Shown piece by piece: positions 11,425 to 28,622 of a DNA stretch of 64,000 bases. Both the position numbers and the translations under genes were made by a program. The DNA comes from Gluconacetobacter sacchari (GTDB lineage: Bacteria > Pseudomonadota > Alphaproteobacteria > Acetobacterales > Acetobacteraceae): contig NZ_JABEQJ010000003.1 in assembly GCF_014174255.1 (NCBI RefSeq), forward strand, positions 1 to 64,000, in the 5' to 3' direction. The notes beneath the pieces are model-generated. The model saw only the letters and a program-made list of their open reading frames with translations. It did no database searches and was not told where the DNA came from. The stretch's first letter is position 1. Every line of letters starts with the position of its first letter.

Positions 11425-12711
11425 TCACGCGCCTGATCGGCATCCGGTGCGTCGCAGCGGTGGCCACAGGGCCACGGCCGACGCGGCGGCGAGCGCCGCC
11501 ATGTAAAGCGCGGTGCCCGAGGCGCCGCCCGTCGCGTGATAGAGGCCGGCGGCGACCAGGGGAGAAATGCCGCCCGCGAGGACCGCGCCGAGTTCGTGGG
11601 CCATCGCGACGCCGCTGTAGCGGAGTTCGGGGGGGAAGAGACGGGCCAGGAGCGCCGGTTCCACCGCGATCATCGGGGCGTGGCACAAGGCCATGCCGCC
11701 GGTGAAGGCCAGGACGACCGACCACAGGGTGTCGTGGTCGAGCAGCATGAAGAATGGCTCGGCCAGGACGGCCAGCGCCACGGCGCCGCCGAGATAGACG
11801 CGTGGGGCCCCGATACGGTCGGCGAGCCAGCCGAAACACGGCATGGCGAGCCCGTCGGCCGCCATCCCCGCCATGCTGCCCATCAGCAGCCATGCGTCGG
11901 GAATATGCCGTGCGTGGCCGTAGAACAGGGCGAACACCGTCATCAGGTAGACGCCGCCATTCTCCGCCAGGCGCAGGGCCATGCCGCAGGCCAGAGGGAG
12001 GCCGCACCGGCGCAGGACCATGATGGCGGGAGGACGGGACGGCGTCGGCGCGGCCGGGCGGCCCGGGGGGATGCCGCGCAGCCAGACCCCCAGCGCGACG
12101 AACGGCACCGCCGCCAGGAAGGCCAGGCGCCAGCCATAGGCCAGGAACGCGTCGCCGGGCAGGCTGCGCGCCAGCAGCAGGGCGGCGGTTCCCAGGACCA
12201 TGCCTGCCGCCACGCCGGACTGGCTGAGGGCGAAGGCGACGCCACGTCCGGTCGCCGGTCCCGCACGGGCGGGCGTATCCCGCAGCGCGGTTTCGCCCTC
12301 GCCGACGATCAGGACCGCCCCTGCCCATTCCCCGCCCGCCGCGAAGCCCTGGACGAGGCGCAGGCCCAGCAGCAGGAGCGGCGCCATCATGCCGATCCGG
12401 GCGTGGGTCGGCAGCACGCCGATCAGCGCCGTCGCGATGCCGATCAGCAGCAGGGTCCAGCGAAGCGCCTCGCGATGGCCGCGCCGATCGCCCAGCGCGC
12501 CGAAGAAGAGCCCGCCGAGCGGCCGCACGACGAAGCCGGCGGCGAAGACCATCAGCGGCTCGGTCTGGACGAGCAGGCTGTCCTGCCCGTGCGCGAAGAA
12601 CAACTGCCCGAACACCAGCGGCGTGGCCGCCGTGTAGAGCGCGAAATCGTACCATTCGACGATATTGCCGATGATGGCGCTGGCCAGAACGCGTCGTTCG
12701 CTGCCGTGCAT
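11425..12711 (-). CDS. MFS transporter, metabolite:H+ symporter (MHS) type
   Basis: The 428-residue inner-membrane permease has twelve predicted helices. The N-terminus RVLASAIIGNIVEWYDFALYT is the hallmark of the MHS branch (ShiA, ProP, KgtP, PcaT-like). The loop 2-3 motif reads GALGDRRGHREAL. The family moves organic acids, aromatic acids or zwitterions with protons. It lies 57 bp after the SnoaL-like gene and on the same strand as the dioxygenase cluster. It is therefore the probable inner-membrane uptake route for that cluster's substrate. The exact substrate cannot be deduced. Confidence 0.88.
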   Translation of the reverse strand: MHGSERRVLASAIIGNIVEWYDFALYTAATPLVFGQLFFAHGQDSLLVQTEPLMVFAAGFVVRPLGGLFFGALGDRRGHREALRWTLLLIGIATALIGVLPTHARIGMMAPLLLLGLRLVQGFAAGGEWAGAVLIVGEGETALRDTPARAGPATGRGVAFALSQSGVAAGMVLGTAALLLARSLPGDAFLAYGWRLAFLAAVPFVALGVWLRGIPPGRPAAPTPSRPPAIMVLRRCGLPLACGMALRLAENGGVYLMTVFALFYGHARHIPDAWLLMGSMAGMAADGLAMPCFGWLADRIGAPRVYLGGAVALAVLAEPFFMLLDHDTLWSVVLAFTGGMALCHAPMIAVEPALLARLFPPELRYSGVAMAHELGAVLAGGISPLVAAGLYHATGGASGTALYMAALAAASAVALWPPLRRTGCRSGA

Positions 12712-12768
12712 GCGTCGCTCCGATTGCGTGTCTGTTTCGATACCATAATATTGATCGATCCGTCCCGG

Positions 12769-13341
12769 CTATGGCTGCATCAGGACCGAAGCCGTGGGGA
12801 TGGACTCCGCCCAGCCGGGGCGCAGCGGTGCGACGAACACGTTTTCGGTACGGGTCCGTGCGATCTTCCAGACGCCGTGCCGCCGGCGGAACAGGTTGTT
12901 CAGGCGGCTGGAGCGCAGCAGCGTCCGCCCGTCCGAGAAGATCCAGGGCTGGCAATGCACCCATTGCCCGTCGGCCTCGTCACCCCGGACATGGATCTGT
13001 TCCGAGGTGAGGTAATGGACGTTCAGCAGCAGGGCCGGGTCGCGCTTCCGGCCCCAGAACGAGTCGAAATGCGCGCGGATGTCGGCCTTGCCCACGCGGC
13101 GACCGAACTGATTGTCGTAATATGCGCCCACACCTTCCCAGATCGCGTCGTCGCAATACAGGTCCATGATCCGGTCGATGCGTGTCCTGTCGTCATCCAC
13201 CCCTGCCTCGGGGCAGGGTGTGTCGCACAGGAACATGTAGCGGGTCTGAAGGCGACGGATATCGGCTTCGGCGGACAGGTCGGCCACCCGGGCGGCCAGG
13301 GCGTCGAGACGATCGGCAAGGTCCATGTTCGGTTTTTCCAT
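12769..13341 (-). CDS. SnoaL-like / NTF2-fold protein of the dioxygenase cluster (IacI-like position)
   Basis: The 190-residue protein starts with a helical segment (ALAARVADLSAEADIRRLQTRYM). It is followed by the cone-shaped alpha+beta NTF2 core seen in SnoaL_4 proteins: DRIMDLYCDDAIWEGVGAYYDNQFGR is split over two short motifs, then a VHYLTSEQIHV strand and a FRRRHGVWKIARTRTENVFV tail. Such proteins are isomerases, hydratases or accessory subunits beside aromatic oxygenases. Its ATG is one base from the amidase stop, so it is co-transcribed. In the iac cluster of Pseudomonas putida 1290 a small protein of this class (IacI) follows an amidase-like protein (IacH), the same order as here. Confidence 0.75.
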   Translation of the reverse strand: MEKPNMDLADRLDALAARVADLSAEADIRRLQTRYMFLCDTPCPEAGVDDDRTRIDRIMDLYCDDAIWEGVGAYYDNQFGRRVGKADIRAHFDSFWGRKRDPALLLNVHYLTSEQIHVRGDEADGQWVHCQPWIFSDGRTLLRSSRLNNLFRRRHGVWKIARTRTENVFVAPLRPGWAESIPTASVLMQP

Positions 13342-13342
13342 G

Positions 13343-14590
13343 TCAGGGGTAATCGCCGTGGGGCGGGGTGCCGCGCGCCGGGAACAGCGCCTCGGCCCAG
13401 GCCGCGTGGCCTAGCAGCCGCTCGTCCCCGTCCCTTGGGCCCAGCAACTGGACGCCGACGGGCAGCCCGGACGGGCCGGCGAAGCCCGGCAGGGTGACGG
13501 TCGGCAGGCGCAGCAGGGTCCACAGCCGGCTGAAGCGGGGGCTGCCGGTGCCCGTGTCCGCCAGCGGGGCCTCGCCCGGTGCCGCCGGCGCCAGCAGCAC
13601 GTCGTAGCGGCCGAACAGATCGGCCGCGCGGGCGCGCAGGGCCCGCGCGGCGACCAGCGCCGCGCGATAGGTGTCGTCGCCGATGCGTTGCCCGCTTTCG
13701 ATCAACCCGGCGATCTGCGGGCTCAGCAGGGCGCGTCGGGCGCGATATTCCCAGGCCAGGGCCTGCGCGGCCTCGTAGCCCATGATCGTCGCGTGCAGGT
13801 CGCAGCCCGTGGCGAAGGGCGCCAGGTCGACCGGTTCGATCGCGGCATGGGCGGCCAGCAGGGCCGTGGCCCGGGACATGGCCCGACGGGTGCCGCCCTC
13901 GGCCTCGTTCCACCAGGGGGTGTGGCACAGGCCGATCCGGGCCGGGGCGCGCGGCGTGGTGGCTGGCGCGCCCGGCAGAGGCCCCTTCAGCACCGCGTCC
14001 GCCCGCGCGGCCGTCGCGACGTCGCGCGTCAGCGTGCCCAGCGTATCGAAGGAGGGCGCCAGCGCCTTCACGCCCGCCAGGGCATAACGCCCGTAGGATG
14101 GTTTGAACCCCACGATGCCGCAATAGGAGGCGGGGCGCGTCAGCGAAGCCGCGGTCTGCGACGCCAGGCCGATATCGGCCATGCCCGTCGCGACCGCGGC
14201 CGCCGAGCCGCTGGACGACCCGCCCGGCGTGCGCGCGGCGTCGAACGGATTGACGGTGGGGCCGGCGCGGAAGAAAGCGAATTCGGTCGTCACCGTCTTG
14301 CCCGCGCAGAGGGCCCCGCCCGCGCGCAGCAGGGCCACGCAGGCCGCGTCCGCCCCGGTGTGAAATCCGTCATAGATGGGCGATCCGTAGCCGGTCGGAT
14401 AATCCTCGGTGGCGATGATGTCCTTGACGCCGATGGCGAGGCCGGCCAGCGGCCCGGCGGGCGCGCATGCGGCCTCGCGCCGCAGCAGGGCGGGGTCGTG
14501 GGCGGAAAATGCGCGGATACGGGCTTCCCGGGCCGCGATGCGGGCCAGGACCCGTTCGGCGCAGCGCGGGGCGGCGGCCTTGGCGGTCAC
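13343..14590 (-). CDS. amidase-signature hydrolase with altered oxyanion motif (IacH-like)
   Basis: The 415-residue amidase-signature (GatA/FAAH) enzyme has K56 in IGVKDII, a cis-Ser within GGSSSGSA (125-129), and nucleophile S149 in TAASLTRPASYCG, completing the Ser-Ser-Lys triad. The usual GGS-I-R block around the nucleophile is changed to AAS-L-T-R. This is unusual and may alter the oxyanion hole or acyl acceptor. The GTG start overlaps the reductase stop by 4 bp. Its place between a Rieske reductase and a SnoaL-like protein parallels IacH of the indole-acetate cluster. Other family members hydrolyse indole-acetamide, nicotinamide and similar amides. A different amide is possible. Confidence 0.85.
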   Translation of the reverse strand: MTAKAAAPRCAERVLARIAAREARIRAFSAHDPALLRREAACAPAGPLAGLAIGVKDIIATEDYPTGYGSPIYDGFHTGADAACVALLRAGGALCAGKTVTTEFAFFRAGPTVNPFDAARTPGGSSSGSAAAVATGMADIGLASQTAASLTRPASYCGIVGFKPSYGRYALAGVKALAPSFDTLGTLTRDVATAARADAVLKGPLPGAPATTPRAPARIGLCHTPWWNEAEGGTRRAMSRATALLAAHAAIEPVDLAPFATGCDLHATIMGYEAAQALAWEYRARRALLSPQIAGLIESGQRIGDDTYRAALVAARALRARAADLFGRYDVLLAPAAPGEAPLADTGTGSPRFSRLWTLLRLPTVTLPGFAGPSGLPVGVQLLGPRDGDERLLGHAAWAEALFPARGTPPHGDYP

Positions 14591-15564
14591 AGGTCGATCA
14601 CCAGCAGGGGGGAACGGGCGCGCGAGCAGCAGAGGGCGATCTGGTCGGTGCGTTCGTCGTCGGTGAGGTACGAATCCCGGTGGTCGGCCTCACCCTCCAG
14701 CATCGTGACGACGCAGGTGCCGCAGATGCCCTGCTCGCAACTGACCGGAACGCGGAGTCCGGCCCGTGCCAGGGCCGCGGTGATCGGTTCGTCGCCGCCG
14801 ACGGCGACCCGCAGGCCGGCGCGCGCGGCTAGGACTTCGAAAGCCCCGCCGGCCGCGACCGGTCGGGCCGAGAACGCCTCGCGGTGGATGGCGTCGGGCG
14901 GCACGCCGGCGGCGCCTGCCGCGCGCGCGACATCCTCCATCAGGCCCGGCGGCCCGCAGACATAGACGGACAGCCCGGCCGTGCCCGCATGCGCCGCCGG
15001 CACGACGGACGGATCGAAACGTGGCGCATCCGCCTGGCTCCGGTCGTGGACCCGCACTCGCTCGGCGAAGGGCGTGCGCCGCAGCAGGGGCGCGAAGACC
15101 GGGTCGCGGGCGACATAATGCAGCACGAAGTCCCGCCCCTGGTCGTGCAGCGCATGGGCCATGGCGACCAGCGGGGTCACGCCGATGCCGCCGCCGACCA
15201 GCACCACCGGCCCGCTGCCGGGGCGCAGGGGGAAGAGGTTGCGGGGGGCGCCTGTCGCGAGTCGCGCGCCGGGGCGGACACGCGCATGCACGGCCCTGGA
15301 GCCGCCGCGCGAGTCCGGTTCCAGCAGGACAGCCAGGCGATAGCGATCCTGCCGCGCCGGATCGCCGCACAGCGAATACTGGCGCACCAGCCCGTCACCG
15401 AGGAAAAGATCGACATGCGCGCCGGCCTGCCACGCCGGCAGCAGGCCGGATTGCGGCCGCAGGTCGAACAGCACGACCTGGCCCAGGAGCGCGACCGTCT
15501 CGACGACGACGGTGATCCGGTCGGGCCGGGGCGCGGGGATGGTGTGCGACGGGATCGTGCTCAC
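14587..15564 (-). CDS. Rieske oxygenase reductase, phthalate-dioxygenase-reductase type (IacF/VanB-like)
   Basis: The 325-residue electron-transfer protein has the class IA order FMN/FAD-NAD-2Fe2S. It carries RQYS for flavin binding, VVLVGGGIGVTPLVAM for nucleotide binding, and a C-terminal plant-type ferredoxin with SCEQGICGTC plus a distant Cys in ALCCSRA. It passes electrons from NAD(P)H to the oxygenase. The GTG start at 15564 overlaps the beta-subunit stop by 4 bp. An open frame upstream carries no homology. PDR-type reductases usually serve oxygenases that have only alpha subunits. Here it is coupled to an alpha/beta pair, as in the iac system. Confidence 0.92.
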   Translation of the reverse strand: MSTIPSHTIPAPRPDRITVVVETVALLGQVVLFDLRPQSGLLPAWQAGAHVDLFLGDGLVRQYSLCGDPARQDRYRLAVLLEPDSRGGSRAVHARVRPGARLATGAPRNLFPLRPGSGPVVLVGGGIGVTPLVAMAHALHDQGRDFVLHYVARDPVFAPLLRRTPFAERVRVHDRSQADAPRFDPSVVPAAHAGTAGLSVYVCGPPGLMEDVARAAGAAGVPPDAIHREAFSARPVAAGGAFEVLAARAGLRVAVGGDEPITAALARAGLRVPVSCEQGICGTCVVTMLEGEADHRDSYLTDDERTDQIALCCSRARSPLLVIDL

Positions 15565-16034
15565 AGGATGTAGCTCACCGCCGTCAGGGCCTCGGTGGCG
15601 TCGAGCAGGCGGATGACCTTGCGATCGATCCTCAGCCCGTCGGAGGTCCGTGCCAGGCGATAGGTCAGGTTGGCGGCGTAGTCGCGCACGCGATGCTGCC
15701 GCAGTTCCTTCAGCAACTGGGCGCAGCGCACGGTGCAGGACGCCGCGCCGCATTCCAGCATCCGGGCGCGGCCGAGCAGCCTGATCGTGCGCGCGGGCGG
15801 CGCCGCCGAGATCGAGCGGCCGCCCAGCAGCCGCGCGACGCGCTTGCGGCGCATGGCGGCGTCGTCATACGCGTAGTTCAGCGTTGCCTCGAAATCCTCC
15901 TGGTCGGGGTCGATGGGAACGATGTATTTCGCCTCGGGCGTGTAGAGCGCGAGCCATTCGTGATAGGCGCCGTGATCGAGCAGGTCGGCTTCCAGCGTGA
16001 TCAGGGCCATGGCCTCGTCGAGCGCGATGGTCAT
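15561..16034 (-). CDS. aromatic-ring-hydroxylating dioxygenase beta subunit (IacD-like)
   Basis: The 157-residue protein is of the NTF2-like ring-hydroxylating beta family: an N-terminal helix (ITLEADLLDHGAYHEWLALYT), PEAKYIVPIDP, DDAAMRRKRVARLLGG, and a C-terminal SRKVIRLL-type strand (here DRKVIRLLDAT). The subunit is structural, forming alpha3beta3 oxygenases. The ATG at 16034 overlaps the alpha stop by 4 bp, so stoichiometric translation with alpha is expected. An alternative open frame to 16388 carries no extra homology. Confidence 0.9.
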   Translation of the reverse strand: MTIALDEAMALITLEADLLDHGAYHEWLALYTPEAKYIVPIDPDQEDFEATLNYAYDDAAMRRKRVARLLGGRSISAAPPARTIRLLGRARMLECGAASCTVRCAQLLKELRQHRVRDYAANLTYRLARTSDGLRIDRKVIRLLDATEALTAVSYIL

Positions 16035-17296
16035 GCCGCGTCTTCTCCGGTCAGGGTGGCCAGCCACTGGCGATAGGCCGCGCGCATGCCGGTCTCGGCG
16101 CTGACGTCGCCGCGTGGATGCCCGTCCGGGCCCTGTGTTTCGCCCCCCAGGCCGCGATTGAGCAGGACCGGGATGCCGCGCCCGGCATGGGAGCCGCGCT
16201 GCACGCGGTCCCATGCCTCGGAATCGTCGGGGGTGCCGAAGCCCATCGGGCCCTGGAAATGCTCGTGCAGGCGCAGGCGCATCTGGTTGGCGATGTCGGG
16301 GCCGCCATCCATGCCGATGGCGATATGGCGGATTTCGGTCTGCGTCACGTCGAGCGGGCGCAGGACGCGGAAGAACGCCATCGAGCAAGCCAGGTTGGGG
16401 AACAGGTTGAGGTTGAAGCCGGTCCCCCCCACGGCGCGTACGATCCGCCGCACCTGCCCGGGCGGGTGATCGTGCGACAGCGCCGCCGCCAGTTCGCGGA
16501 ACCGTTCGGGGATCGGTGCGTCGAGATCGGCCTCCAGATCGACCAGTTCGGGGATCATGACCATGACCGAATGGCCATGGCCCAGATCCTCGACGAACCC
16601 GTCGCCTTCGACGAAATTGAACGTATCCTGCGTTTCGTGGTCCACGGAATCCAGGAAGGATTTGTGGACGATCGGGAAATGATAGGCGTCGGTCGTGTTT
16701 TCGAGCTGGATCTTCCAGTTGCCGGGGAAGGTGAATTTATGCTCGCCCATCGTCTTGACCGGCCAGCCGGCGCCCTGTTTCATGAACAGGTCGATCCACG
16801 GTTTCGCCGCGCCCAGCCAGTTGTCCAGGTCGGGAATGGCGTGATCGAAGGTGGCGAAGATCAGGCCCTGATAGTCCGCGACCCGCAGGTTGACCAGCGG
16901 CAGGGATGCCTTGTCGAGCTGTCCGTCATAGCCGTCCACGTGCGGCACGCCGCGGAGGGCACCGTCCAGACCGTAGGCCCATCCATGATAGGGGCATACG
17001 AAACTGGCCGTACTGCCCTTTGCTTTCTCGCACACCGTCGCGGCGCGGTGGCGGCAGCGGTTGAGCATCACATGCACCGTGCCCTTGCGGTCGCGGGACA
17101 CGATGACCGGATGCGCGCCGACGAACGTGGTGATGAAATCGCCGGGTTCGGGAATGTCGCTGTCATGCGCCACCCAGATCCAGTGATGCATGAAGATGCG
17201 GTCCATCTCCAGGGCGAACAGCGCCGGGTCGCTGTAGATCGAACCGTCGGCACGATCCGGCGCCAGGACCGTTCGGGGATCGGGCGGGTTGGTCAT
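16031..17296 (-). CDS. aromatic-ring-hydroxylating dioxygenase alpha subunit, Rieske type (IacC-like)
   Basis: The 421-residue catalytic subunit has a Rieske [2Fe-2S] site C81-R-H83, 17 residues, then C101-P-Y-H104. The mononuclear iron site has bridging D203 and ligands H206 and H211 in DAYHFPIVH. A C-terminal TPDDSEAW segment supplies the acidic ligand. The start at 17296 is chosen because GGAG lies 7 bases upstream; an ATG at 17308 would add four residues. It is the first gene of a string of overlapping genes (alpha, beta, reductase, amidase). It would add O2 to an aromatic or indolic acid. The gene set fits IacC, which acts on oxidised indole-acetate. The true substrate is not proven. Confidence 0.93.
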   Translation of the reverse strand: MTNPPDPRTVLAPDRADGSIYSDPALFALEMDRIFMHHWIWVAHDSDIPEPGDFITTFVGAHPVIVSRDRKGTVHVMLNRCRHRAATVCEKAKGSTASFVCPYHGWAYGLDGALRGVPHVDGYDGQLDKASLPLVNLRVADYQGLIFATFDHAIPDLDNWLGAAKPWIDLFMKQGAGWPVKTMGEHKFTFPGNWKIQLENTTDAYHFPIVHKSFLDSVDHETQDTFNFVEGDGFVEDLGHGHSVMVMIPELVDLEADLDAPIPERFRELAAALSHDHPPGQVRRIVRAVGGTGFNLNLFPNLACSMAFFRVLRPLDVTQTEIRHIAIGMDGGPDIANQMRLRLHEHFQGPMGFGTPDDSEAWDRVQRGSHAGRGIPVLLNRGLGGETQGPDGHPRGDVSAETGMRAAYRQWLATLTGEDAA

Positions 17297-17344
17297 GATG
17301 TGCTCCATTCGAAGGAAAATCGGGATTCGGTCCTGGCCAGGTAC

Positions 17345-19702
17345 CTAGAAATCGTGGCTCAGTTCGAATCCGGTCATCATCGGCGACGCCACGATGTTGT
17401 GTATGAAGGCGCCGCTGGGCTGCACGAAGAAGGCATTGAACTTGGAGAGGATGATGTAACGGTCGAGCGCGTTGTTGATGTAGAACGATGCCCGCCATCT
17501 CGGCCGCTTGTAGGTGATGCGCAGGTCCAGCCGGTTCCATGCGGGAATATCCAGGATCGGGTCGCTGGAGGTCGCGTTCGAACCGACATAGCTGCTGTCG
17601 ACCCAGCGGAAATTGGCCTGGAACGCCAGGCTTTGTTCCGGCGCCAGCGGCACGGTGTAGGAACCCATCACGTCCGCCGTCCAGTCCGGCGTGCTGGGCA
17701 GGCGGTCGCCGGTGCGCACCACCGGGGTCAGGCCCGCGCCGGGATAGATGACGTAGTTGAGGAAGCGGCTCGCGGTGTAGGAGATGCTGCCGCTGATATT
17801 CAGCCGCTGCGTCACCTGCGCGTCCAGCCCGCCCTCGAAGCCCGTCACGCGGCTTGCCGCCGCGTTGGTGATCGCGTGCGAAGTGATGCCGTCTCGAATC
17901 ACCGTCGACTGGACCTGCTGGTTCTTCATTTCGATATCGTATCCGGCGACCGTCAGGTTGACGCGGTGCGCGATCCGGAACTTGCCGCCGAGTTCGTAGT
18001 TGGTGGCTTTCTCGGGCGCGACCGGGGTGACGTCGCTGGGCAGGAACGGTGCCTTCTGGTAGCTGCCGGACTTGAAGCCCTGGGCGTAGCTGAAATAGAT
18101 CGAGCCCAGATCGGGAAAGTCGTAGCGGAGCGAGGCCGACGGCGAGGCATTGTACCAGCCGTGCGAATTCTGCACCGGGCTGTTGAAGCTCTGCCAGCCG
18201 TTCTGCAAGCTGCTTCGGGGGGCGGTCAACACGCCGTTTACGGGCATGACGTAGCGCTCCAGCCCCGAGGCATCGACATGTTCCCATGTATAGCGCACGC
18301 CGGCATCGAGATGCAGGCGCTGCGTGATGGCGTAGCCCGCATGGACGAATCCGGCGATGCCGGTGCGGCGCAGGGCGACGATCTGCGAGTTCCAGAACCC
18401 GCTATAGAGTGACGGTGCGCCGCCATCGGGATCGTTGAGGTCTGCCAGGCTGTAGAAGCGGTTGCTGTATTCCCGGTCCTTGTAGGCCGAAATGCCGCCG
18501 CCCCAGGTCAGCCGGCGGGTGGGCAGGGAATCCAGCCGCAGGGTCTGGACCTTCGATTGCTGTTCCTCGTAGAGAACCTGGAGGTTGTTCTTGTATGCGG
18601 CGTTGCCGACGAAATCGATGGGCGCGTCGGAATAGGCTTCGCGCCACGAGGTGACCGAGGTGAGCGTGCCGAAGGGCAGGTGCCATTTCGCATTGATGCC
18701 AACGCCGTAATCGGCGCTGTCCGCCTGATAGGCCAGGTCGCCCAGGATGTCGTAGCAATGGCAGCTTGTCAGCGGGCCGCCGGCACTCTGGTTGCCGTTG
18801 TCGCGATGATAGTCGCCGATCAGGCGGATTTCGATCCTGTCTGTCGGAACGAAGCGGAATTCGGAACGGAAACCTGCATTCTGTTCGATTCCGGTATATT
18901 TTCCAAGGCGGATATGGCTGCCATAGAGGGCAACCAGATCCTGGCCCGGGAAATAGGGGTTCTGATACCGGGGGGATGAACCGGTATTTTTGAAATACCC
19001 GTCCGACCGTGTGTAGTAGGCCAGGAGCGAGCCGTATACCCCGCGCGCGATCCGACCGCTGACCATGGCCTGGACCTTGGCCGTGTTGTAGCTGCCATAG
19101 CCGACTTCCATCCGGCTGATGGTGCGATCGCCCGGCGCGCGGGTGGTGATGCTGACGGCGCCGGCCTCGGAATTGCGGCTGAACAGGACGTTTTCCGGAC
19201 CCTTGTAGATATCCACCCGCGCCGGATCGAGGAAACCCATGTCGAAGCTGATCGCCGGCATGTAGATTTCGTCGACATAGGTGCCGGTGCCGGGTTCGAG
19301 CTGGGCGTTGTTGCCGACACCACGGATGACGAGCTGCTGCGATTCACCCGTGGGAGACAGCGAGCTTGTCGCCAGTGAGATGCCGGGGGTGATGCCCAGC
19401 AGGTCCTTCGTGTCCCGAATCCCCATTTCCTGCAATTGTTCGGAGGAATAGGACGACACCGATTGCGGCAGGTGGCGGATCCGGGCCGTCTGCCCGCTGG
19501 CGGTGACCGCGATCACCTCGCCTTGCGGCGGAGGCGGCGCCGCTCTCGACCTGCGCCCCTTGGCGACCGCTTTGGCGGGGGGAGGGGGATCCTGCGCCTC
19601 GGCGATGGAGGCATGGCCGACGAGCATGGCGGACGTGGCGATCACGGCCGCCATGGACCATTGTTGTCGCGGGTTTACAGCACGGCGGGGGCGCGCGGAC
19701 AT
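17345..19702 (-). CDS. TonB-dependent receptor linked to the dioxygenase cluster
   Basis: The 785-residue outer membrane receptor starts with a basic n-region and hydrophobic core ending ASIAEAQ. A Pro-rich linker, a TonB-box-like GEVIAVTASG, a plug domain with LVIRGVG and VDIYKGPEN, and a 22-strand barrel ending in an aromatic-terminated strand (FELSHDF) follow. The start at 19702 has AAGGA eight bases upstream; 19729 is a possible longer start. It sits 48 bp upstream of the oxygenase alpha gene on the same strand, so it is probably the outer-membrane importer of the cluster's substrate. TonB receptors for aromatic compounds are known mainly in sphingomonads. In the canonical iac cluster none is present. 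Confidence 0.92.
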   Translation of the reverse strand: MSARPRRAVNPRQQWSMAAVIATSAMLVGHASIAEAQDPPPPAKAVAKGRRSRAAPPPPQGEVIAVTASGQTARIRHLPQSVSSYSSEQLQEMGIRDTKDLLGITPGISLATSSLSPTGESQQLVIRGVGNNAQLEPGTGTYVDEIYMPAISFDMGFLDPARVDIYKGPENVLFSRNSEAGAVSITTRAPGDRTISRMEVGYGSYNTAKVQAMVSGRIARGVYGSLLAYYTRSDGYFKNTGSSPRYQNPYFPGQDLVALYGSHIRLGKYTGIEQNAGFRSEFRFVPTDRIEIRLIGDYHRDNGNQSAGGPLTSCHCYDILGDLAYQADSADYGVGINAKWHLPFGTLTSVTSWREAYSDAPIDFVGNAAYKNNLQVLYEEQQSKVQTLRLDSLPTRRLTWGGGISAYKDREYSNRFYSLADLNDPDGGAPSLYSGFWNSQIVALRRTGIAGFVHAGYAITQRLHLDAGVRYTWEHVDASGLERYVMPVNGVLTAPRSSLQNGWQSFNSPVQNSHGWYNASPSASLRYDFPDLGSIYFSYAQGFKSGSYQKAPFLPSDVTPVAPEKATNYELGGKFRIAHRVNLTVAGYDIEMKNQQVQSTVIRDGITSHAITNAAASRVTGFEGGLDAQVTQRLNISGSISYTASRFLNYVIYPGAGLTPVVRTGDRLPSTPDWTADVMGSYTVPLAPEQSLAFQANFRWVDSSYVGSNATSSDPILDIPAWNRLDLRITYKRPRWRASFYINNALDRYIILSKFNAFFVQPSGAFIHNIVASPMMTGFELSHDF

Positions 19703-19761
19703 TGTAAATCCTTTTGGCGTTGGGGGCAAAGTCGGTTCGATGATTTATCGAACCATGTTTC

Positions 19762-19773
19762 GTATCCGGATAC
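19762..19773. promoter_or_regulatory. 12-bp perfect palindrome GTATCCGGATAC, candidate MarR operator
   Basis: GTATCC followed directly by GGATAC lies 60 bp upstream of the TonB-receptor start in an AT-rich intergenic stretch between that gene and the MarR gene. MarR dimers bind short palindromes of this size next to the genes they repress. The assignment is inferred from position only. Confidence 0.4.
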
Positions 19774-19899
19774 ATCACTTTTCATATTAATTTTAGTTAA
19801 TTTGTGCGTGCGCGTTCAGCCGCCCGGAAAGTGATCCCGGTCGGTTGTGTTGTGGAATGCGCTGCCGCCGATGCCGGCCGGTTGGCCGGTGGTGCGGGA

Positions 19900-20361
19900 T
19901 CAGAAACGCCGGAGCTGTTCGAAGATTGTCTGGAGACGCGCGTTCATCGCGTCCATGTCGGTATCGGACAGGTCGCCGAATACGAACGAGAAGATCTGCC
20001 CGATTTCCGGTCGCAGGCGCTCGAGCGTTTCGCGGCCGTGATCGGTGATCGTGATGTGGATCGCGCGCCCGTCACCCTGCGACGTCGTGACCTGTACGAG
20101 CCCTTCCGCGGCCATGCGCTGGATGACCTTGGTCAGGGTGGACTGTTTCAGCACCGCCTCGTCCATCAATTGCGAAAGCGACGACATATCGCGCCGCGAC
20201 AGGGCGGAGAGTACTTTCCATTGCGAGTGGTCCAGGCCGGCGCGCTTCAGGGCGCGCTCCGCCTTCAATCCGTGGAGGCTGGAGATGCGGCCCATCCAGT
20301 AGAACGGCGAGTCCTCGAGTTTGAAGTCGGGTGAGGACGGGGTTTTGCGGCGACCTGTCAC
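19900..20361 (-). CDS. MarR-family transcriptional regulator (IacR-like position)
   Basis: The 153-residue winged-helix regulator has helix alpha1 WMGRISSLHGL, recognition region LSQLMDEAVLKQSTLTKVIQRM, wing VTTSQGDGRAIHITITDHG, and a C-terminal dimerisation helix. MarR proteins commonly repress catabolic genes and release DNA on binding an aromatic ligand. The start is GTG at 20361. It is the first gene of the minus-strand run leading through the TonB receptor and the Rieske oxygenase. A MarR protein (IacR) regulates the indole-acetate cluster of P. putida 1290, which matches the location here. Confidence 0.9.
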   Translation of the reverse strand: MTGRRKTPSSPDFKLEDSPFYWMGRISSLHGLKAERALKRAGLDHSQWKVLSALSRRDMSSLSQLMDEAVLKQSTLTKVIQRMAAEGLVQVTTSQGDGRAIHITITDHGRETLERLRPEIGQIFSFVFGDLSDTDMDAMNARLQTIFEQLRRF

Positions 20362-20448: not shown

Positions 20449-23094
20449 TTAAAAAAACAGATCGTTCTGATACCGTTTAAGATAAAAAATACTACTTTCC
20501 CCGATCATTCGAATGGCAGCGATCTTTTCGGCGCGGGTTACAGGAGAGTGGTGCATGAATGTCGCTTCAAGTTGAACGCATAAGTTGAACAGTTCGGAAA
20601 GACCAAGAGACGAAGCCGCTCCACCGAGACGATGAATCGCCTCGATTCGATCCGTGTCGTTCCGAGACATTTCAATTTTCTCCAGGCGTTGCTCCAGTTG
20701 CCCGCAAAACACGTCAATGGCCCTGCATATGGCTTCCGGACCGGCATAGTTCATCTGGGCGGTCAGGAAGGCCGCGTCAAGAATTGGGCGCCGATTCTGA
20801 ACGATATCAACTTGCCTGCCTCTGGAGGACCGGCCGAGGACATCAAGCACCATTGATCGCAGGTGCGATGGCCTGAACGGCTTGGCCAGAAAATCCTTGA
20901 TCCCGGCGGCTTCCATTTTCGACGCGTCAGGCGTCGCATTCGCGGAAACTGCGATAATTGGCGTGCCACCGATTCTTCCGCCCAGGGAGCGGAGTCTTGC
21001 TGCGGTCTGGTATCCATCCAGGCCGGGCATGCGGAGGTCCAGCAACAGGAGATCGAACACATCCTGCTGCATCAGACGTATGGCGTCTTCTCCATTGTCA
21101 GTCGTGGTTATGTGCGCGCCGCATGCCCGAAGCCCCCATTCGATAACCAGCCTGTTTTCTTCCACGTCGTCGGCAACGAGGATGCGCGTGCCGGAAAGGG
21201 AGGGGGCAATCTGTTGTACTTCGGCGGTCTGTGTTGTGGAGTCCTGCTCACTCAGGGCCGCGCGAAGACTGGAGCGCCCTATGGGATAAAACTCGAGCTG
21301 ACTATTCTCGAACAACACGCTGGGGAGCGTGTCGATAGTTTGCCCGATCGGACTGAATACGATGACGCGGGAACAGAGTGACCGGGCGCGCTGATACAGC
21401 TCGATCGCCGAGGGAGGACTGACGGAGAGCGGAAGGACTACCAACGCCGCGGTCCGCGACGGAGAGCCCGATAGCGCAGTTTCCCTGCCCGCCACCCGCG
21501 AAGCGATACCCAACCCGGCGCAGGCCGCCTCCAGGGCCGAACGTGTCCTGCTTTCCGGCCCCAGTATGATGACTTCGCTCACCGTCATGCCTGACGGCGG
21601 GGCGCTACAGGACCTTACCGGGAGGGCTACACTGAATGTGCTTCCATGATTTCGGGTACTATCGACGGTAATTCTGCCGCCCATGGCCTGTGCGAGACCT
21701 TGAGCAATGCTCAATCCCAGGCCGGTTCCGCTGGTCGCGTCGTCGGAGCCGGGGCTGAGCTTTGAAAATCGATCGAAAATCCGGTTTTGATCGGCCGGAG
21801 CGATGCCTATTCCGGTGTCCTGAATCGACAGAAGCAACTCGTGCTCATCATTCGTCACCACCAGGTCGACATTGATTTCAATCCATCCGGATCTGGTGAA
21901 TTTTATGGAATTTCCGATAAGATTATACAAAATCTGCCGTAAACGCGTCGGATCGATCCGGATACTCTCCGGCAACCGTGGCGCATGGGTCAAAACGAAC
22001 TCTATCCCTTTTCGGTGTCCCAGAGGCGCGAGGCTGCGGACGACTTCTTCGACAATGGCCTCGACATTCACTTCAATCGGAACAATCTTTAGTTCGTTTT
22101 CTTCTATTTTGGCGAAATCAAGCGTATCGTCGACAATGCTTGCAAGAGAATGTGCCGAATTTACAATATTGACCAGATATTTTTTGTCGAGATCGTTCGA
22201 TTTTATCTCAAGAAGTAGTTCCGCCATGTTGATGATGGCATTCAGAGGGGTCCGGATTTCATGGCTCATTGTTGCCAGAAAACGGCTCTTGGCGTCATTC
22301 GCGGCCTGAGCAAGCCGCGCCGCGTCCAGAAGTTGCGTGTTTTTGGTCTCCAATTCAGCAGTGCGCTCCGCAACGCGACTCTCGAGTTGCCGATTGAGCG
22401 CTTCAAGGTCCGCATGCGATTTCTTGACCTCGGTGATATCGTGAGATGCGAAGACCGCCAGGATCCGACCGAAATATGAAACCCGCTTCGCGCTGACAAT
22501 GATATCGCGCAGGTTGCCGCTTTGGGTCCGCATTCTTCCTTGCAGGTTGTCGACGTGGCCGTATTTCGTCAGTTGCCTTACAACTTCGGATCGGAACGAA
22601 GTGTTTTCCCAGATATTCATATCCTGCGCGGTTCTTCCGATCACATCGCCGCGCTGATACTCCATGGCGTTGAGCCAGGCGGGATTTACATCCAGATGCT
22701 CCCCCGTTTCCAGAACCGAAATAGCCGAGAGGCCGGGATTGAGCTGGAAGGCCTGGGCATGGATCAGATTCAAGGTCAGAGTGTCGTCACCCAGAAAAAG
22801 AATCGCTCCGCCTTCCGTTTCCCTGGTGAACGACGTTATTGGCTCAAGCCGATATCGAATGATCTTGTTTCGCCGTTTTAGACGAAGTGTCCCCTCGATC
22901 GCCGCGTTGCTGGAAAACCATGGGGATGATAGCGGGCCTGACTCTGGTTCAAGCCAATGTGTGATGGACCCCCCGGCTACGGGGGTGCCCTGAGCCGCCG
23001 CGACGACGTGGACAAATGAGGAACTGCAATAGGCAATGATACCTTCCGCGTTCAGGACGCCGAAGGCGATGGCGTTTACGGCAAGGTCACACAC
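20449..23094 (-). CDS. hybrid sensor histidine kinase (PAS-like sensors, HisKA, HATPase, degenerate REC, REC, Hpt)
   Basis: The 881-residue cytoplasmic protein has PAS-like regions at about 5-105 and 110-225, a coiled coil (225-270), and a HisKA box FLATMSHEIRTPLN with H278. The ATPase has N395 in NLIGN and G-boxes DTGIGI and GTGLGLSI. A receiver-like segment at about 505-615 has lost the aspartate pattern. An intact receiver has D686 in LLLDLRMP. A C-terminal Hpt domain carries H821 in IHRLGGAASSLG. The usual Lys three residues after the Hpt His is Gly here. There are no TM helices, so it senses an intracellular signal, possibly redox. DNA is AT-richer than in neighbouring operons. Confidence 0.92.
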   Translation of the reverse strand: MCDLAVNAIAFGVLNAEGIIAYCSSSFVHVVAAAQGTPVAGGSITHWLEPESGPLSSPWFSSNAAIEGTLRLKRRNKIIRYRLEPITSFTRETEGGAILFLGDDTLTLNLIHAQAFQLNPGLSAISVLETGEHLDVNPAWLNAMEYQRGDVIGRTAQDMNIWENTSFRSEVVRQLTKYGHVDNLQGRMRTQSGNLRDIIVSAKRVSYFGRILAVFASHDITEVKKSHADLEALNRQLESRVAERTAELETKNTQLLDAARLAQAANDAKSRFLATMSHEIRTPLNAIINMAELLLEIKSNDLDKKYLVNIVNSAHSLASIVDDTLDFAKIEENELKIVPIEVNVEAIVEEVVRSLAPLGHRKGIEFVLTHAPRLPESIRIDPTRLRQILYNLIGNSIKFTRSGWIEINVDLVVTNDEHELLLSIQDTGIGIAPADQNRIFDRFSKLSPGSDDATSGTGLGLSIAQGLAQAMGGRITVDSTRNHGSTFSVALPVRSCSAPPSGMTVSEVIILGPESRTRSALEAACAGLGIASRVAGRETALSGSPSRTAALVVLPLSVSPPSAIELYQRARSLCSRVIVFSPIGQTIDTLPSVLFENSQLEFYPIGRSSLRAALSEQDSTTQTAEVQQIAPSLSGTRILVADDVEENRLVIEWGLRACGAHITTTDNGEDAIRLMQQDVFDLLLLDLRMPGLDGYQTAARLRSLGGRIGGTPIIAVSANATPDASKMEAAGIKDFLAKPFRPSHLRSMVLDVLGRSSRGRQVDIVQNRRPILDAAFLTAQMNYAGPEAICRAIDVFCGQLEQRLEKIEMSRNDTDRIEAIHRLGGAASSLGLSELFNLCVQLEATFMHHSPVTRAEKIAAIRMIGESSIFYLKRYQNDLFF

Positions 23095-23150
23095 CGAACT
23101 CTCCCTCGTGGGTCTGATGGAATGCGAATTAACAAAATCATCATAAACTA

Positions 23151-23174
23151 AAATATCCTCATGACGGGATATTT
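23151..23174. promoter_or_regulatory. 8-bp perfect inverted repeat AAATATCC/GGATATTT abutting a start codon
   Basis: AAATATCC (23151-23158) and GGATATTT (23167-23174) are exact reverse complements with an 8-base spacer. They lie between the hybrid kinase (minus strand) and the small plus-strand gene whose ATG follows immediately at 23175. The repeat could be an operator for the divergent pair, or a hairpin that masks the ribosome-binding site of the small gene. Confidence 0.4.
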
Positions 23175-23360
23175 ATGTCGCACATTCGAGACAAATTGAT
23201 GCCAAAATCATGGATTGAACCCGAACGATGTGTACAGAGCCATATGTTACAAGAGTTTCAATTTCCTCAGTCAAATCCTGTCTGTCTATATGATTTACTT
23301 AAGGCGGATCGTGGTGGAGATGAAAGCGGTCTTGGAATCGTAAGACTGCATGATGATTAG
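23175..23360 (+). CDS. possible small hypothetical protein (61 aa)
   Basis: The short frame MSHIRDKLMPKSWIEPERC overlaps the next plus-strand gene by 11 bp. There is no recognised domain, signal peptide or TM segment, and only weak GGGAT in place of a ribosome-binding site, itself inside an inverted repeat. It may be a real leader gene or chance. The local DNA is AT-rich, which makes a 61-codon open frame somewhat less likely by chance than in the rest of the window. Confidence 0.3.
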   Translation: MSHIRDKLMPKSWIEPERCVQSHMLQEFQFPQSNPVCLYDLLKADRGGDESGLGIVRLHDD

Positions 23361-23646
23361 AGCGACTGTGAAAAAGAATTTTGTCCGCATGCTGGAAATA
23401 TTTGGATTTTCAATGAAAAAAAGGGGGGCAAAGCGTCCTTTTTCTGTCGGTGATATGGTCCGTGTTCATACGGGATGGCCACGAAATTACGATCTCGATT
23501 TTATCGGGCGGATCGAAGACATTAAAGTCAAATTCGGCCCTGAAGATCATGCTCTTCCTTGTCGGGAGCGGCATCGTTTTGGAATCAAGCTTCCCTATTC
23601 CGGACTTTATTACTTCAGTGCCGTGGAAATTGCGCACCTTCATTAG
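23350..23646 (+). CDS. hypothetical protein with SH3/KOW-like beta pattern (98 aa)
   Basis: The 98-residue protein has a basic N-terminal segment (KKNFVRMLEIFGFSMKKRG), then FSVGDMVRVHTGWPRN, a strand pattern DFIGRIEDIKVKFG, and a YYFSAVEIAHL tail. This alternation with an initial 'VGD-V-V' motif is typical of small SH3-like or KOW-like barrels. No family is recognised. It is convergent with the downstream response regulator gene and follows the small frame at 23175. Codon use follows the AT-richer local style. Confidence 0.5.
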   Translation: MMIRATVKKNFVRMLEIFGFSMKKRGAKRPFSVGDMVRVHTGWPRNYDLDFIGRIEDIKVKFGPEDHALPCRERHRFGIKLPYSGLYYFSAVEIAHLH

Positions 23647-23767
23647 GTCAGGTCGAGCAGGGTCTTGATCCGATCGTGCCTGAGGCGATCGTGACAGGCG
23701 GTGTCTCCTGGAGATGACGCGGTCGAAAACAGATTTCCTTTCCGATCCTGTCGCCGATCTTGGCGAC

Positions 23768-24484
23768 TTACAGTCGCTTCGCTGTCAGCCTGTAACCAAA
23801 CCCATGTACCGTCGCGATCGGGGAGGGGGTCGTATTATGGACGGCCTGTAGTTTGAGGCGCAGACGATAGATTGCCTTGTCGACGGCTCGGGTGGTGATA
23901 TCTTCATCGTCACTCATGAGAAAGAGTATACGGTCCCGATGAAGTGGCTTGGTGGCATTGCTTATTAATGCGTCCAATATGCGAAATTCATTTTTGGTCA
24001 GGGAAACGGATTTTCCAGTACTGTTGAATATTTTTCTCGCACTCAGATCGACCGACCAGCCTTCGAAATGATAGGCAGTCGTGCCCTTGTCCGCGATTTT
24101 TGTGCCTTGTATCCGGAACGAAAGATTACGAACGCACGCGACGAGCTCTCGTGGATGGAGTGGCTTTTCCAGATATTGATCGACGGCGCTCTCCAGGGCC
24201 TTTAGTCGATCGGTTGCCTCGGCGCTGGAGGTAATGACGATGATGCCTGCGGAACTGACGTTTCGAAGCTCGGATATCAGTTCAAGAGCATTTCCGTCGG
24301 GAAGGCGAAGATCCAGTAGAATGATATCAAAACGCGCCTGATAGGCTTGTTGCCGCAGTTCGGATAACGTGCCCGCCGTTTTTACCGTAAAGCCGGCACC
24401 AATTAATATCGCACTATAAAGATCACGCGTAATCTCGTCATCTTCGACTAGTAGAAGTGTGGGTTTCGGATAATCGGAAATCAT
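23768..24484 (-). CDS. OmpR-family response regulator near the hybrid kinase
   Basis: The 238-residue regulator has a receiver with acidic residues ED-D at 14-16, phosphoacceptor D58 in ILLDLRLPDGN, and Lys in LEKPLHPREL. A winged-helix effector domain covers about 140-235 and ends VHGFGYRLTAKRL. The start is set at 24484 where the receiver fold begins; an ATG at 24520 would add 12 residues without homology. It is on the same strand as the hybrid kinase, separated by two small opposite-strand frames, and is its likely output because that kinase has an Hpt domain but no DNA-binding domain. Targets are unknown. Confidence 0.9.
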   Translation of the reverse strand: MISDYPKPTLLLVEDDEITRDLYSAILIGAGFTVKTAGTLSELRQQAYQARFDIILLDLRLPDGNALELISELRNVSSAGIIVITSSAEATDRLKALESAVDQYLEKPLHPRELVACVRNLSFRIQGTKIADKGTTAYHFEGWSVDLSARKIFNSTGKSVSLTKNEFRILDALISNATKPLHRDRILFLMSDDEDITTRAVDKAIYRLRLKLQAVHNTTPSPIATVHGFGYRLTAKRL

Positions 24485-25074
24485 GGCCCGCAATATCTCT
24501 CCATTGGGCGGCGAATGCAACGACGAGTTGGACGAAACCAGCGCTTGCCAAATATCTCATCATTGAGATGAATATGTCGCAATTTTGGGATAAACATCTG
24601 ATATCGAGACACGTTGACGGAGTTCTCGAACAAAGTGAGGGCGTGTTCAGGATCGAGTGTTCATTCTGAATTTTCTCGGGAAAGCGGTGATCGCTGCCCG
24701 GGATCACCGAGAACGCACAAAACGCGAGAATAGGTAGGGTTCCATTCAATTTAATAAGTAATTAACTATTCTTATTCCCATCAGTTCGTTTTGATAAGAT
24801 AATAATGGCCCGCGCTATTCGGTCCGTTCCCGGAAAGGGCGCCTGCTGCGTTGGTTCACGAAAATATCCAATCTTTGCACTCAATCGTTATGCAATGAAC
24901 AATGGTATCGAAATGGTCAGACCAGGGAAGAATATTGGGGGCGGGCGCCGTGGTGATTCCGGTGTGAAGGAGTGCTGGCGGCGGACAGTTTTCGTGCCTC
25001 GATCTCCCGCGTTGCGTATGACCGTCCGATGCCTGTCGCGACATGATCACGGAACGCAGTGAGGCGATTTGTCG
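24485..25074. other. 590-bp AT-rich intergenic region with two hairpins, no convincing gene
   Basis: No open frame here has convincing coding character. Two inverted repeats stand out. ATCTCA-tcat-TGAGAT lies at 24554-24569. CGGTGATC (24686-24693) pairs with GATCACCG (24703-24710) across a 9-base loop, and an overlapping alternative stem TTCTCGG (24674-24680) with CCGAGAA (24708-24714) shares three bases with it. Read on the minus strand both lie in the presumed 5' leader of the response regulator. AT-rich promoter-like DNA lies around 24740-24805. Confidence 0.5.
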
Positions 25075-25293
25075 ATGCGGGACGACTATTATGGCGCTGG
25101 CATCACGGCTCTTGACGTGGCGGCGACGCTGCTCTGGACCGGGGGGTCCACCGCCATGGTTACAATTCGACGTCATATCGCACGCTGTCTGGAGGCGGGG
25201 GCGCCCGACGAAGCCGAATTCTGGCTCAAGGTGAGAAACCAGGTTGAGGCTTTGTTGGAAAAGGAAAAGAATTCCAACGGTTTGTCCCATTGA
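25075..25293 (+). CDS. small hypothetical protein (about 72 aa), DUF6961-like pattern
   Basis: MRDDYYGAGITALDVAATLL is followed by TIRRHIARCLEAGAPDEAEFWLKVRNQVEALL. The pattern of a short helix, a long Arg-rich helix 'A-R-C-L-E-A-G' and 'FW-K-V' resembles a widespread family of 60-75-residue alphaproteobacterial helical proteins of unknown function. An upstream GAGGCG sits 9 bases before the ATG at 25075; a TTG at 25069 would add two residues. It precedes the cytochrome c peroxidase gene by 83 bp on the same strand, so the two may be co-transcribed. Confidence 0.5.
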   Translation: MRDDYYGAGITALDVAATLLWTGGSTAMVTIRRHIARCLEAGAPDEAEFWLKVRNQVEALLEKEKNSNGLSH

Positions 25294-25376
25294 GACGGCA
25301 TATATCCAAATGTGTCCGAAAGCGTCGATCTCATGGGGCGAGCAGATAAAGTGCAATTCAAGACAAGGATCGCAGA

Positions 25377-26831: not shown

Positions 26832-27017
26832 CTGGGATGGTGCCAGTCTACCTGACGGCCGGCACCGGCCGAACCAAGATGGTTGGGATGCCAGGCGGGA
26901 ATCGAACGCGATATTGAAAATATAGCCGATAATCTATCGCCTTTGATTATAAACTTATGAATCATGCAATATCTTGTCCCGCCATGCTTCGCATGACGAA
27001 ACCGCGAGGGAATTGAA

Positions 27018-28559: not shown

Positions 28560-28622
28560 ACGGATATATAAGGCGAGGTGGGACATTGGTGAAGACTGAC
28601 GAGGTTGATTGGGAGATCCTGT

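Follow-up and report, generated by a model that had tools for sequence, protein, structure and literature searches.

The window analysed here, that is the first 64,000 nucleotides of contig NZ_JABEQJ010000003.1 (contig C3) of Gluconacetobacter sacchari (assembly GCF_014174255.1), carries on its minus strand, at positions 11425-20361, eight intact open genes related to the indole-3-acetic acid (IAA) catabolic genes (iac) of Pseudomonas putida 1290. By sequence comparison, this cluster is a second, reduced and colinear copy of the complete-type iac cluster found on another contig (C11) of the same genome (4.83 Mb, scored 100% complete and 1.27% contaminated). It somewhat probably represents a stand-alone lower iac module, which would convert dioxindole-3-acetic acid (DOAA), or a near homologue, to catechol, starting from an oxidised indole either imported or made internally.

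Gene content and identity of the oxygenase

The cluster opens with a MarR-family regulator related to IacR (19900..20361; Pfam MarR match over the curated cut-off) and, after an intergenic region of 170 bp (19730..19899), continues with a TonB-dependent outer-membrane receptor (17345..19729; Pfam Plug and TonB barrel), whose frame begins with TTG and whose likely start is the ATG at 19702. A further 36 bp downstream follow the iacC-like Rieske oxygenase alpha subunit (16031..17308; Rieske and Ring_hydroxyl_A), the iacD-like beta subunit (15561..16034; Ring_hydroxyl_B, PF00866) and the iacF-like phthalate dioxygenase reductase (PDR)-type ferredoxin reductase (14587..15564; GTG start; Fer2 and NAD_binding_1, the latter barely over the curated cut-off with 23 vs 22 bits). 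An amidase-signature enzyme in the IacH position (13343..14590; Amidase, PF01425), an iacI-like SnoaL-fold protein (12769..13341; SnoaL_4) and, after 57 bp, a major facilitator superfamily (MFS) transporter (11425..12711; MFS_1; TIGR00883 at 272 bits, under the cut-off of 443) complete the set. The same eight genes on one strand had been listed at these positions in a preliminary description made from the letters alone, and the open frames and Pfam matches bear it out. Its account of the junctions was right on the tight overlaps and on the single base separating the amidase and SnoaL genes, while the junctions from alpha to amidase, counted as four, are actually three (alpha/beta, beta/reductase and reductase/amidase), each with a 4-bp overlap. 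No match to iacA, iacB, iacE or iacG was found in the cluster, and promoter and terminator scans gave results close to shuffle level (2 vs 1.1 and 4 vs 3.8).

Compared with the proteins of P. putida 1290 (locus L180 of genome G668, an assignment that we infer), identity is 66% for C, 48% for D, 47% for F, 38% for I, 35% for R and 31% for H. The alpha subunit falls within the IacC rows both in a quick tree (106 rows) and in a careful tree (27 rows), pairing with a copy from Nguyenibacter with support of 99 and 97/92, respectively. Its identity with BenA of pWW0, AntA of pCAR1 and HcaE of Escherichia coli K-12 is 31-32%, and its scores are far under the NCBIfam cut-offs (178.6 of 780.95 bits for TIGR03229; 200.6 of 671.9 bits for TIGR03228), thus ruling out a benzoate- or anthranilate-type alpha subunit. 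The assignment to the IacC kind is upheld by the trees and by the 66% identity. A tblastn search against plasmids retrieved alpha subunits of 59-65% identity in Acinetobacter, Klebsiella, Novosphingobium, Azospirillum, Burkholderia and others, and the plasmid loci inspected (four out of four) place them among other iac genes.

The candidate ligand residues of the Rieske cluster and of the iron, whose roles we presume, are invariant in 12 aligned copies. When compared with 14 complete-cluster copies, the core segments of the alpha subunit (residues 196-260, 291-335 and 336-372) are 84-95% identical and residues 161-195 are 89-97% identical, with 70-90% for the Rieske domain, 60-80% for residues 261-290 and 55-77% for both ends. 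Six columns set the window and Nguyenibacter proteins apart from at least 13 of these 14 copies, one of them (residue 296) lying in the core. We expect the enzyme to catalyse the reaction of its complete-cluster counterparts, with DOAA or a near homologue as substrate; the high core identity would be weak evidence of this, since any conserved enzyme would look alike. The structure 7YLS, which we take to be Variovorax IadD, matches residues 6-219 only (145 bits), and no IadAB-type gene is among the Pfam matches of the cluster.

The amidase aligns with malonamidase E2 over residues 14-398 with 206 bits, the next best kind of protein reaching 133 bits, and its K56, S125, S149 and R152 correspond to K62, S131, S155 and R158 of malonamidase E2, residues that we assume to be functional in that enzyme. 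This likeness fits, and suggests, a small acid amide as substrate. With P. putida IacH the amidase shares the Pfam family and 31% identity over 339 aa (70 bits); a role of IacH in ammonia release has been proposed earlier (excerpts of PMC11373566). The SnoaL-like protein matches P. putida IacI with 38% identity (105 bits) and is 73-80% identical to the I protein of five complete-type clusters of the same genus, and the MFS transporter is 38.5% identical to that of a partial duplication in P. putida 1290, termed IacT1-like (PMC6624763).

As for the regulator, its best match among solved structures is 7KUA (98 bits), which is P. putida IacR, where Tyr44 sits 2.6 Å from the IAA carboxylate (excerpts of PMC9613470). 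At this position a His is found in the window and Nguyenibacter regulators, while the other 23 of the 25 aligned have Tyr, so that an effector different from IAA is a reasonable guess from the alignment. The TonB-proximal part of the intergenic region is readily aligned with its Nguyenibacter counterpart. It contains an inverted repeat at 19734-19754, which is poorly preserved in Nguyenibacter and might be a putative operator. Of the IacCDFHI plus R subset proposed in the preliminary description, C, D, F and I stand, the regulator is nearest, among solved structures, to IacR, and the amidase can be equated with IacH at the family level only.

Two iac versions in one genome and reduced sets elsewhere

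A second alpha gene, whose product is 85% identical to that of the window, was found on C11 (loci L023 and L024), in a complete-type cluster made of genes for an MFS transporter, IacR, an FMN-dependent dehydrogenase, a TonB receptor, A, C, D, E, F, an ApbA-like reductase, a class II aldolase, G, H and I; no match to IacB was found in it. The order C-D-F-H-I is equal in both clusters, with the MFS gene of C11 on the other side, and of the eight iac enzyme genes of C11 (A, C, D, E, F, G, H and I) the window cluster is without exactly A, E and G. Also missing are the ApbA-aldolase-G block and the FMN-dependent dehydrogenase. Protein identity between the two versions is 85% for C, 77% for D, 69% for F, 69% for H, 74% for I and 62% for MFS, with DNA-level blocks of 85% (C-D), 75% (F), 76% (H-I) and 71% (MFS); the TonB receptors (24%) and the MarR regulators (34%) belong to other lineages. 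The ratio of nonsynonymous to synonymous substitutions (dN/dS) is 0.27-0.43 for C, D, F, H and MFS. The C11 copy is the sole IacA match in the genome at E <= 1e-10; IacE, looked for in the two clusters, is found on C11, as is a G-like gene (29%). The absence of A, B, E and G, originally described from the window, is thus true of the cluster, but the genome does possess IacA, IacE and an IacG-like protein.

Nguyenibacter vanlangensis also has two versions, both running up to a contig end: R-TonB-C-D-F (L025), with the TonB gene split into two frames in an assembly of 1310 contigs, and R-FMN-dependent dehydrogenase-TonB-A-C-D-E-F-ApbA-aldolase-G-H (L026). Between the window and L025, dN/dS is 0.18 for C, 0.14 for D, 0.28 for F (part), 0.13 for R and 0.18 for the first part of TonB, indicating purifying selection on these five genes or parts of genes. 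The window cluster has its gene set and order in common with the C11 cluster and, up to the contig end in F, with Nguyenibacter, which marks it as more than a chance arrangement.

Among 397 Acetobacteraceae genomes sampled from a larger group, the own genome included, an IacC match at E <= 1e-150 was found in 16, three of which (G000, G013 and G377) have two copies. Each reduced module of these three is accompanied by a complete-type cluster, G013 and G377 running into contig ends. In Acetobacter tropicalis (G377) the stand-alone alpha groups with its own complete-cluster copy (support 100/98), the two versions being 94% (C), 91% (D) and 87% (F) identical. That the stand-alone alphas of these three genomes go back to one origin was discarded, their union in one clade being rejected by the approximately unbiased (AU) test (p 2.4e-5); judging from these trees, the A. 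tropicalis module is an independent duplication beside the same receptor type. It retains a G gene cut by the contig end, and the gene upstream of its TonB is weakly MFS-like. None of the 14 loci with a complete-type acetic-acid cluster (L023, L026-L030, L044, L046-L049, L051, L052 and L133), some of them cut by contig ends, gave an IacB match, in line with IacB being dispensable for DOAA formation (excerpts of PMC7225977).

Other genes are associated with some of these clusters. The ApbA-like reductase and the class II aldolase occur in all six of L023 and L026-L030, and the FMN-dependent dehydrogenase in five of the six; none of the three was found in L048, L051 and L052. In Acinetobacter and several Burkholderiales, iac genes have similar aldolase and reductase genes in their neighbourhood, and the same gene kinds are mentioned for Marinomonas (excerpts of PMC11373566).

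A receptor gene not found in the classical cluster had been noted ahead of the oxygenase. It is no peculiarity of the partial cluster, since eight of the 14 complete-type acetic-acid clusters, that of C11 included, carry a TonB receptor, as do two Novosphingobium plasmid iac clusters, and the receptor is therefore ruled out as a hallmark of the partial cluster alone. The solved relatives of the window receptor at E <= 1e-10 are ten, all siderophore or pesticin receptors (46-55 bits). Its own type, at E <= 1e-200, is present in six of the 397 Acetobacteraceae genomes: beside a stand-alone C in G000, G013 and G377 (A. tropicalis), and without C in G011, G109 and G380, the last compared by sizes of open reading frames (ORFs) only. 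In G011 the relative lies between a glutamine-synthetase-like gene and an MFS gene, in G109 it adjoins a glutamine-synthetase-like gene, and in both isochorismatase, RpiR and N-formylglutamate-amidohydrolase genes are nearby. A further observation concerns L036:5953-14723, where a receptor relative stands in a block of isochorismatase, glutamine-synthetase-like, TonB and MFS genes, accompanied by genes for RpiR, an M20 deacylase and an N-formylglutamate amidohydrolase; this block may serve the uptake of amines or amides.

Reduced sets were also found in Pseudomonas. Of 398 genomes from a larger group, 81 gave an IacC match at E <= 1e-150. Two copies were seen in nine of the 81, a minimum because no more than four candidates were scored in each genome; 14 stretches, nine from two-copy genomes, were compared. 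A first layout, LysR-C-D-F-OprD-MFS, adjoins a complete cluster (P. putida 1290, L179, L182, L183 and L105) and had already been reported for P. putida 1290 in 2019 (PMC6624763). A second layout is I-H-C-D-F-OprD-MFS (L113 and L176), with a variant I-H-permease-C-D (L178, where the permease was assigned by Pfam, and L177, recognised from its equal ORF sizes). The duplicated alpha of P. putida 1290 shares 99.5% identity with IacC, but the duplicated F only 68% with IacF, which makes gene conversion between the alpha copies likely on identity grounds, so that alpha trees alone cannot date those duplications.

Over all loci compared, a sample biased towards the best 80 of 576 loci plus loci picked for double copies, A and E lie within 9 kb of 95 of the 108 IacC copies; for 34 of the 108, the end of the contig or locus is no more than 6 kb away. 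The other 13 comprise four that are cut short or combine E with a variant A (L053, L106, L111 and L174), the B-C-D-E-F-G copy of L177, and eight sets lacking an E of their own (the window, L025, L134, L176, the other L177 copy, L178, L195 and L196), five of these near an end. For seven of the 95, A and E are near but outside the copy's own run, including five C-D-F-OprD copies (L105, L179, L180, L182 and L183).

Finally, upstream of the MarR gene, third-position GC drops to 0.53-0.69 at 20449-30383, while in the rest of the window it is mostly at least 0.8. Genes for a hybrid histidine kinase, a response regulator, a MauG-type peroxidase, a protoglobin chemoreceptor and a GGDEF/EAL protein lie in this region, which is perhaps an acquired island.

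Proposed route and competing explanations

In the known pathway, IacA and then IacE make DOAA, IacG serving IacA as reductase, and the conversion of DOAA to catechol requires iacC (and CDF, possibly I) through intermediates that are unknown (excerpts of PMC7225977 and PMC9613470). A, E and G, which the window cluster lacks, all act before DOAA, so the cluster would encode the lower half. A route can be proposed, in which the TonB receptor and the MFS transporter would import an indole acid that is already oxidised, either DOAA itself or one of its close homologues; as an alternative source, DOAA made by the genome's complete cluster would feed the module, while plant-made oxindole-3-acetic acid (oxIAA) would require one further oxidation. 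IacCDF would dihydroxylate the ring at both fusion carbons, the nitrogen would leave one fusion carbon and the bond to C3 would break, possibly with the help of IacI. The products would be catechol and a small amide of an alpha-keto acid, in the case of DOAA 2-oxosuccinamate, and from this amide the amidase would release ammonia. The likeness to malonamidase E2 lends some support to the proposed deamidation. The MarR protein would respond to a ligand other than IAA.

In a more specific form, the module would be dedicated to the uptake and breakdown of oxidised auxin, its tuned MarR controlling the degradation of plant- or microbe-derived dioxindole- or oxindole-acetate, or a conjugate, to catechol, ammonia and a C4 acid; this we regard as possible but tentative. 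If this is true, the parallel I-H-C-D-F sets of Pseudomonas would show that C, D, F, H and I are the whole post-DOAA half. Plants make oxIAA and its Asp and Glu conjugates (excerpts of PMC8608799), and the iad pathway reaches dioxindole-3-acetic acid, oxIAA not being an intermediate (excerpts of PMC12633357). With plant-made oxidised auxin as the substrate, bacteria would harvest inactive hormone waste as carbon and nitrogen, leaving active auxin untouched.

Several observations weigh against a lower module acting on oxidised indoles. No match to the catechol 1,2-dioxygenase N-domain (PF04444) was found in the genome, the best match to catechol 2,3-dioxygenase TIGR03211 is under the cut-off and is HpaD, and the PF00775 pair is protocatechuate 3,4-dioxygenase. 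With no catechol dioxygenase by these two models (PF04444 and TIGR03211), the fate of catechol is unexplained, also for the complete cluster. The receptor relatives in G011 and G109 adjoin glutamine-synthetase-like and other amide genes, not iac genes. Moreover, the alpha genes of the window and C11 differ by a synonymous divergence (dS) of 0.34, compared with 0.88 for the two complete-cluster copies, that of the own genome and that of Nguyenibacter; exchange between the own copies by gene conversion is possible from these values, and may keep alpha alike without selection for the same substrate. Lastly, an IacA-like gene (A2) and a G-like gene are found about 4-17 kb from an E-less C in Pseudomonas G422, G611 and G758 and in Azohydromonas, so that some E-less modules may, from their gene content, start from a non-oxidised indole through their own monooxygenase.

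The A2-clade genes were located at L196:7187-8410, L195:9334-10551, L193:7494-8684, L194:8739-9998 and L192:146-1396. The proteins of the three Pseudomonas genomes and Azohydromonas are 55-94% identical among themselves and with the A2 of A. tropicalis, whose gene lies on a contig separate from its module, and 37-48% identical to IacA; A2 may open a second iac-like pathway without IacE. A search for IacA matches returned no A2 in the window genome, nor in Nguyenibacter (87% complete) beyond the complete-cluster A. In one Pseudomonas genome with one IacC found, A2, G-like, F-like, catalase-family and aldehyde dehydrogenase genes lie in the region next to the module (L193:7494-15235). In G758 (one IacC found, four of five candidates scored) the I-H-permease-C-D set is near a catA-type gene, which points to catechol. 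Taken together, an oxidised indole as the substrate of the window module fits the evidence, a fit of sequences and not a proof.

Among the competing explanations, the one that survives best, though we hold it rather unlikely, is that of a dosage or isozyme copy, by which the module would add lower-pathway capacity and re-uptake of intermediates to an IAA breakdown begun by the complete cluster. Such a role may also fall to the partial duplicate of iacCDF in P. putida 1290, where the iacCDF-OprD-IacT1-like MFS set adjoins the complete iacABCDEFG cluster and the alpha copies are 99.5% identical. Both the co-occurrence of a complete-type cluster in all three acetic-acid genomes with a reduced module (G000, G013 and G377) and the low dS of alpha between the window and C11 are in accordance with a dosage copy. 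On the contrary, the window MarR (34%) and TonB (24%) have diverged from those of C11 and lie on a different contig, and F and H retain 67-69% identity; having a regulator of its own suggests that the module answers to a distinct signal.

More doubtful is a different substrate, such as another 3-substituted dioxindole or an aromatic amide or amine; here a conjugate would be imported and the amidase would be the first enzyme to attack it. The changed ligand residue of the MarR protein (Tyr44 to His), the vicinity of TonB relatives to amide and amine genes and the production of oxIAA-Asp and oxIAA-Glu by plants (excerpts of PMC8608799) would agree with it, but the catalytic core of alpha is barely changed, the resemblance of the amidase to malonamidase E2 over most of its length suggests a small substrate, and no other-type acyl-amino-acid hydrolase is in the cluster by Pfam. 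A decaying remnant of a duplicated iac cluster, to which only the missing genes would point, is very improbable and largely refuted, this pseudogene reading being rejected on the dN/dS of 0.13-0.28 vs Nguyenibacter, along with the open frames, the tight junctions, the clean absence at gene boundaries and a gene order equal as far as the Nguyenibacter contig reaches.

Comparison with known iac and iad systems

Both the route from DOAA to catechol and the roles of IacH and IacI are unsettled (excerpts of PMC7225977 and PMC9613470). The stand-alone lower module favoured here would set the lower half of the iac pathway, the unsolved one, apart from the remainder, and the naturally separate C-D-F-amidase-I set of the window, together with the I-H-C-D-F sets of Pseudomonas, names the proteins to combine in one DOAA assay. 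No open-access title on this module was found for Gluconacetobacter with iac nor, among the matches listed, for acetic acid bacteria with auxin degradation; among the matches listed, iacCDF is named in PMC6624763 and PMC9613470. Complete iac-like operons are described in Sphingomonas (excerpts of PMC11630574).

The Variovorax iad system shares with the window cluster a Rieske oxygenase and MarR regulators in auxin breakdown. IadDE, however, act first and the product is anthranilate (excerpts of PMC9613470), whereas the window alpha is IacC-like. In Paraburkholderia the iac genes are split, with iacRCDT1BIHE on one chromosome and iacT2AG on the other; as in the window, the oxygenase half is apart from A and G, and an MFS gene by C-D is labelled as a DOAA transporter. 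Unlike in the window cluster, B and E stay with the oxygenase half, F lies beyond the cat genes, and one set is present (excerpts of PMC11676955).

With iacABCDEFG-R-HI of P. putida 1290 the window cluster shares homologues of C, D, F, I and R, being without A, B, E and G. The closest parallel is the partial duplication of the same strain (iacCDF with OprD, an IacT1-like MFS and LysR; PMC6624763), which, like the window, has C, D and F without A, B, E and G, next to an outer-membrane protein and an MFS transporter of the same family (38.5%). The window module differs from it in keeping I and the amidase, in having a TonB receptor and a MarR regulator where the duplication has OprD and LysR, and in its location far from the genome's complete set. 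Partial duplicates of iacCDF that come with transporters were thus already known; the window module is a variant that also keeps the amidase and I, and, by gene content, comparable C-D-F copies accompanied by transporters are seen again in Acetobacter tropicalis and in Pseudomonas.

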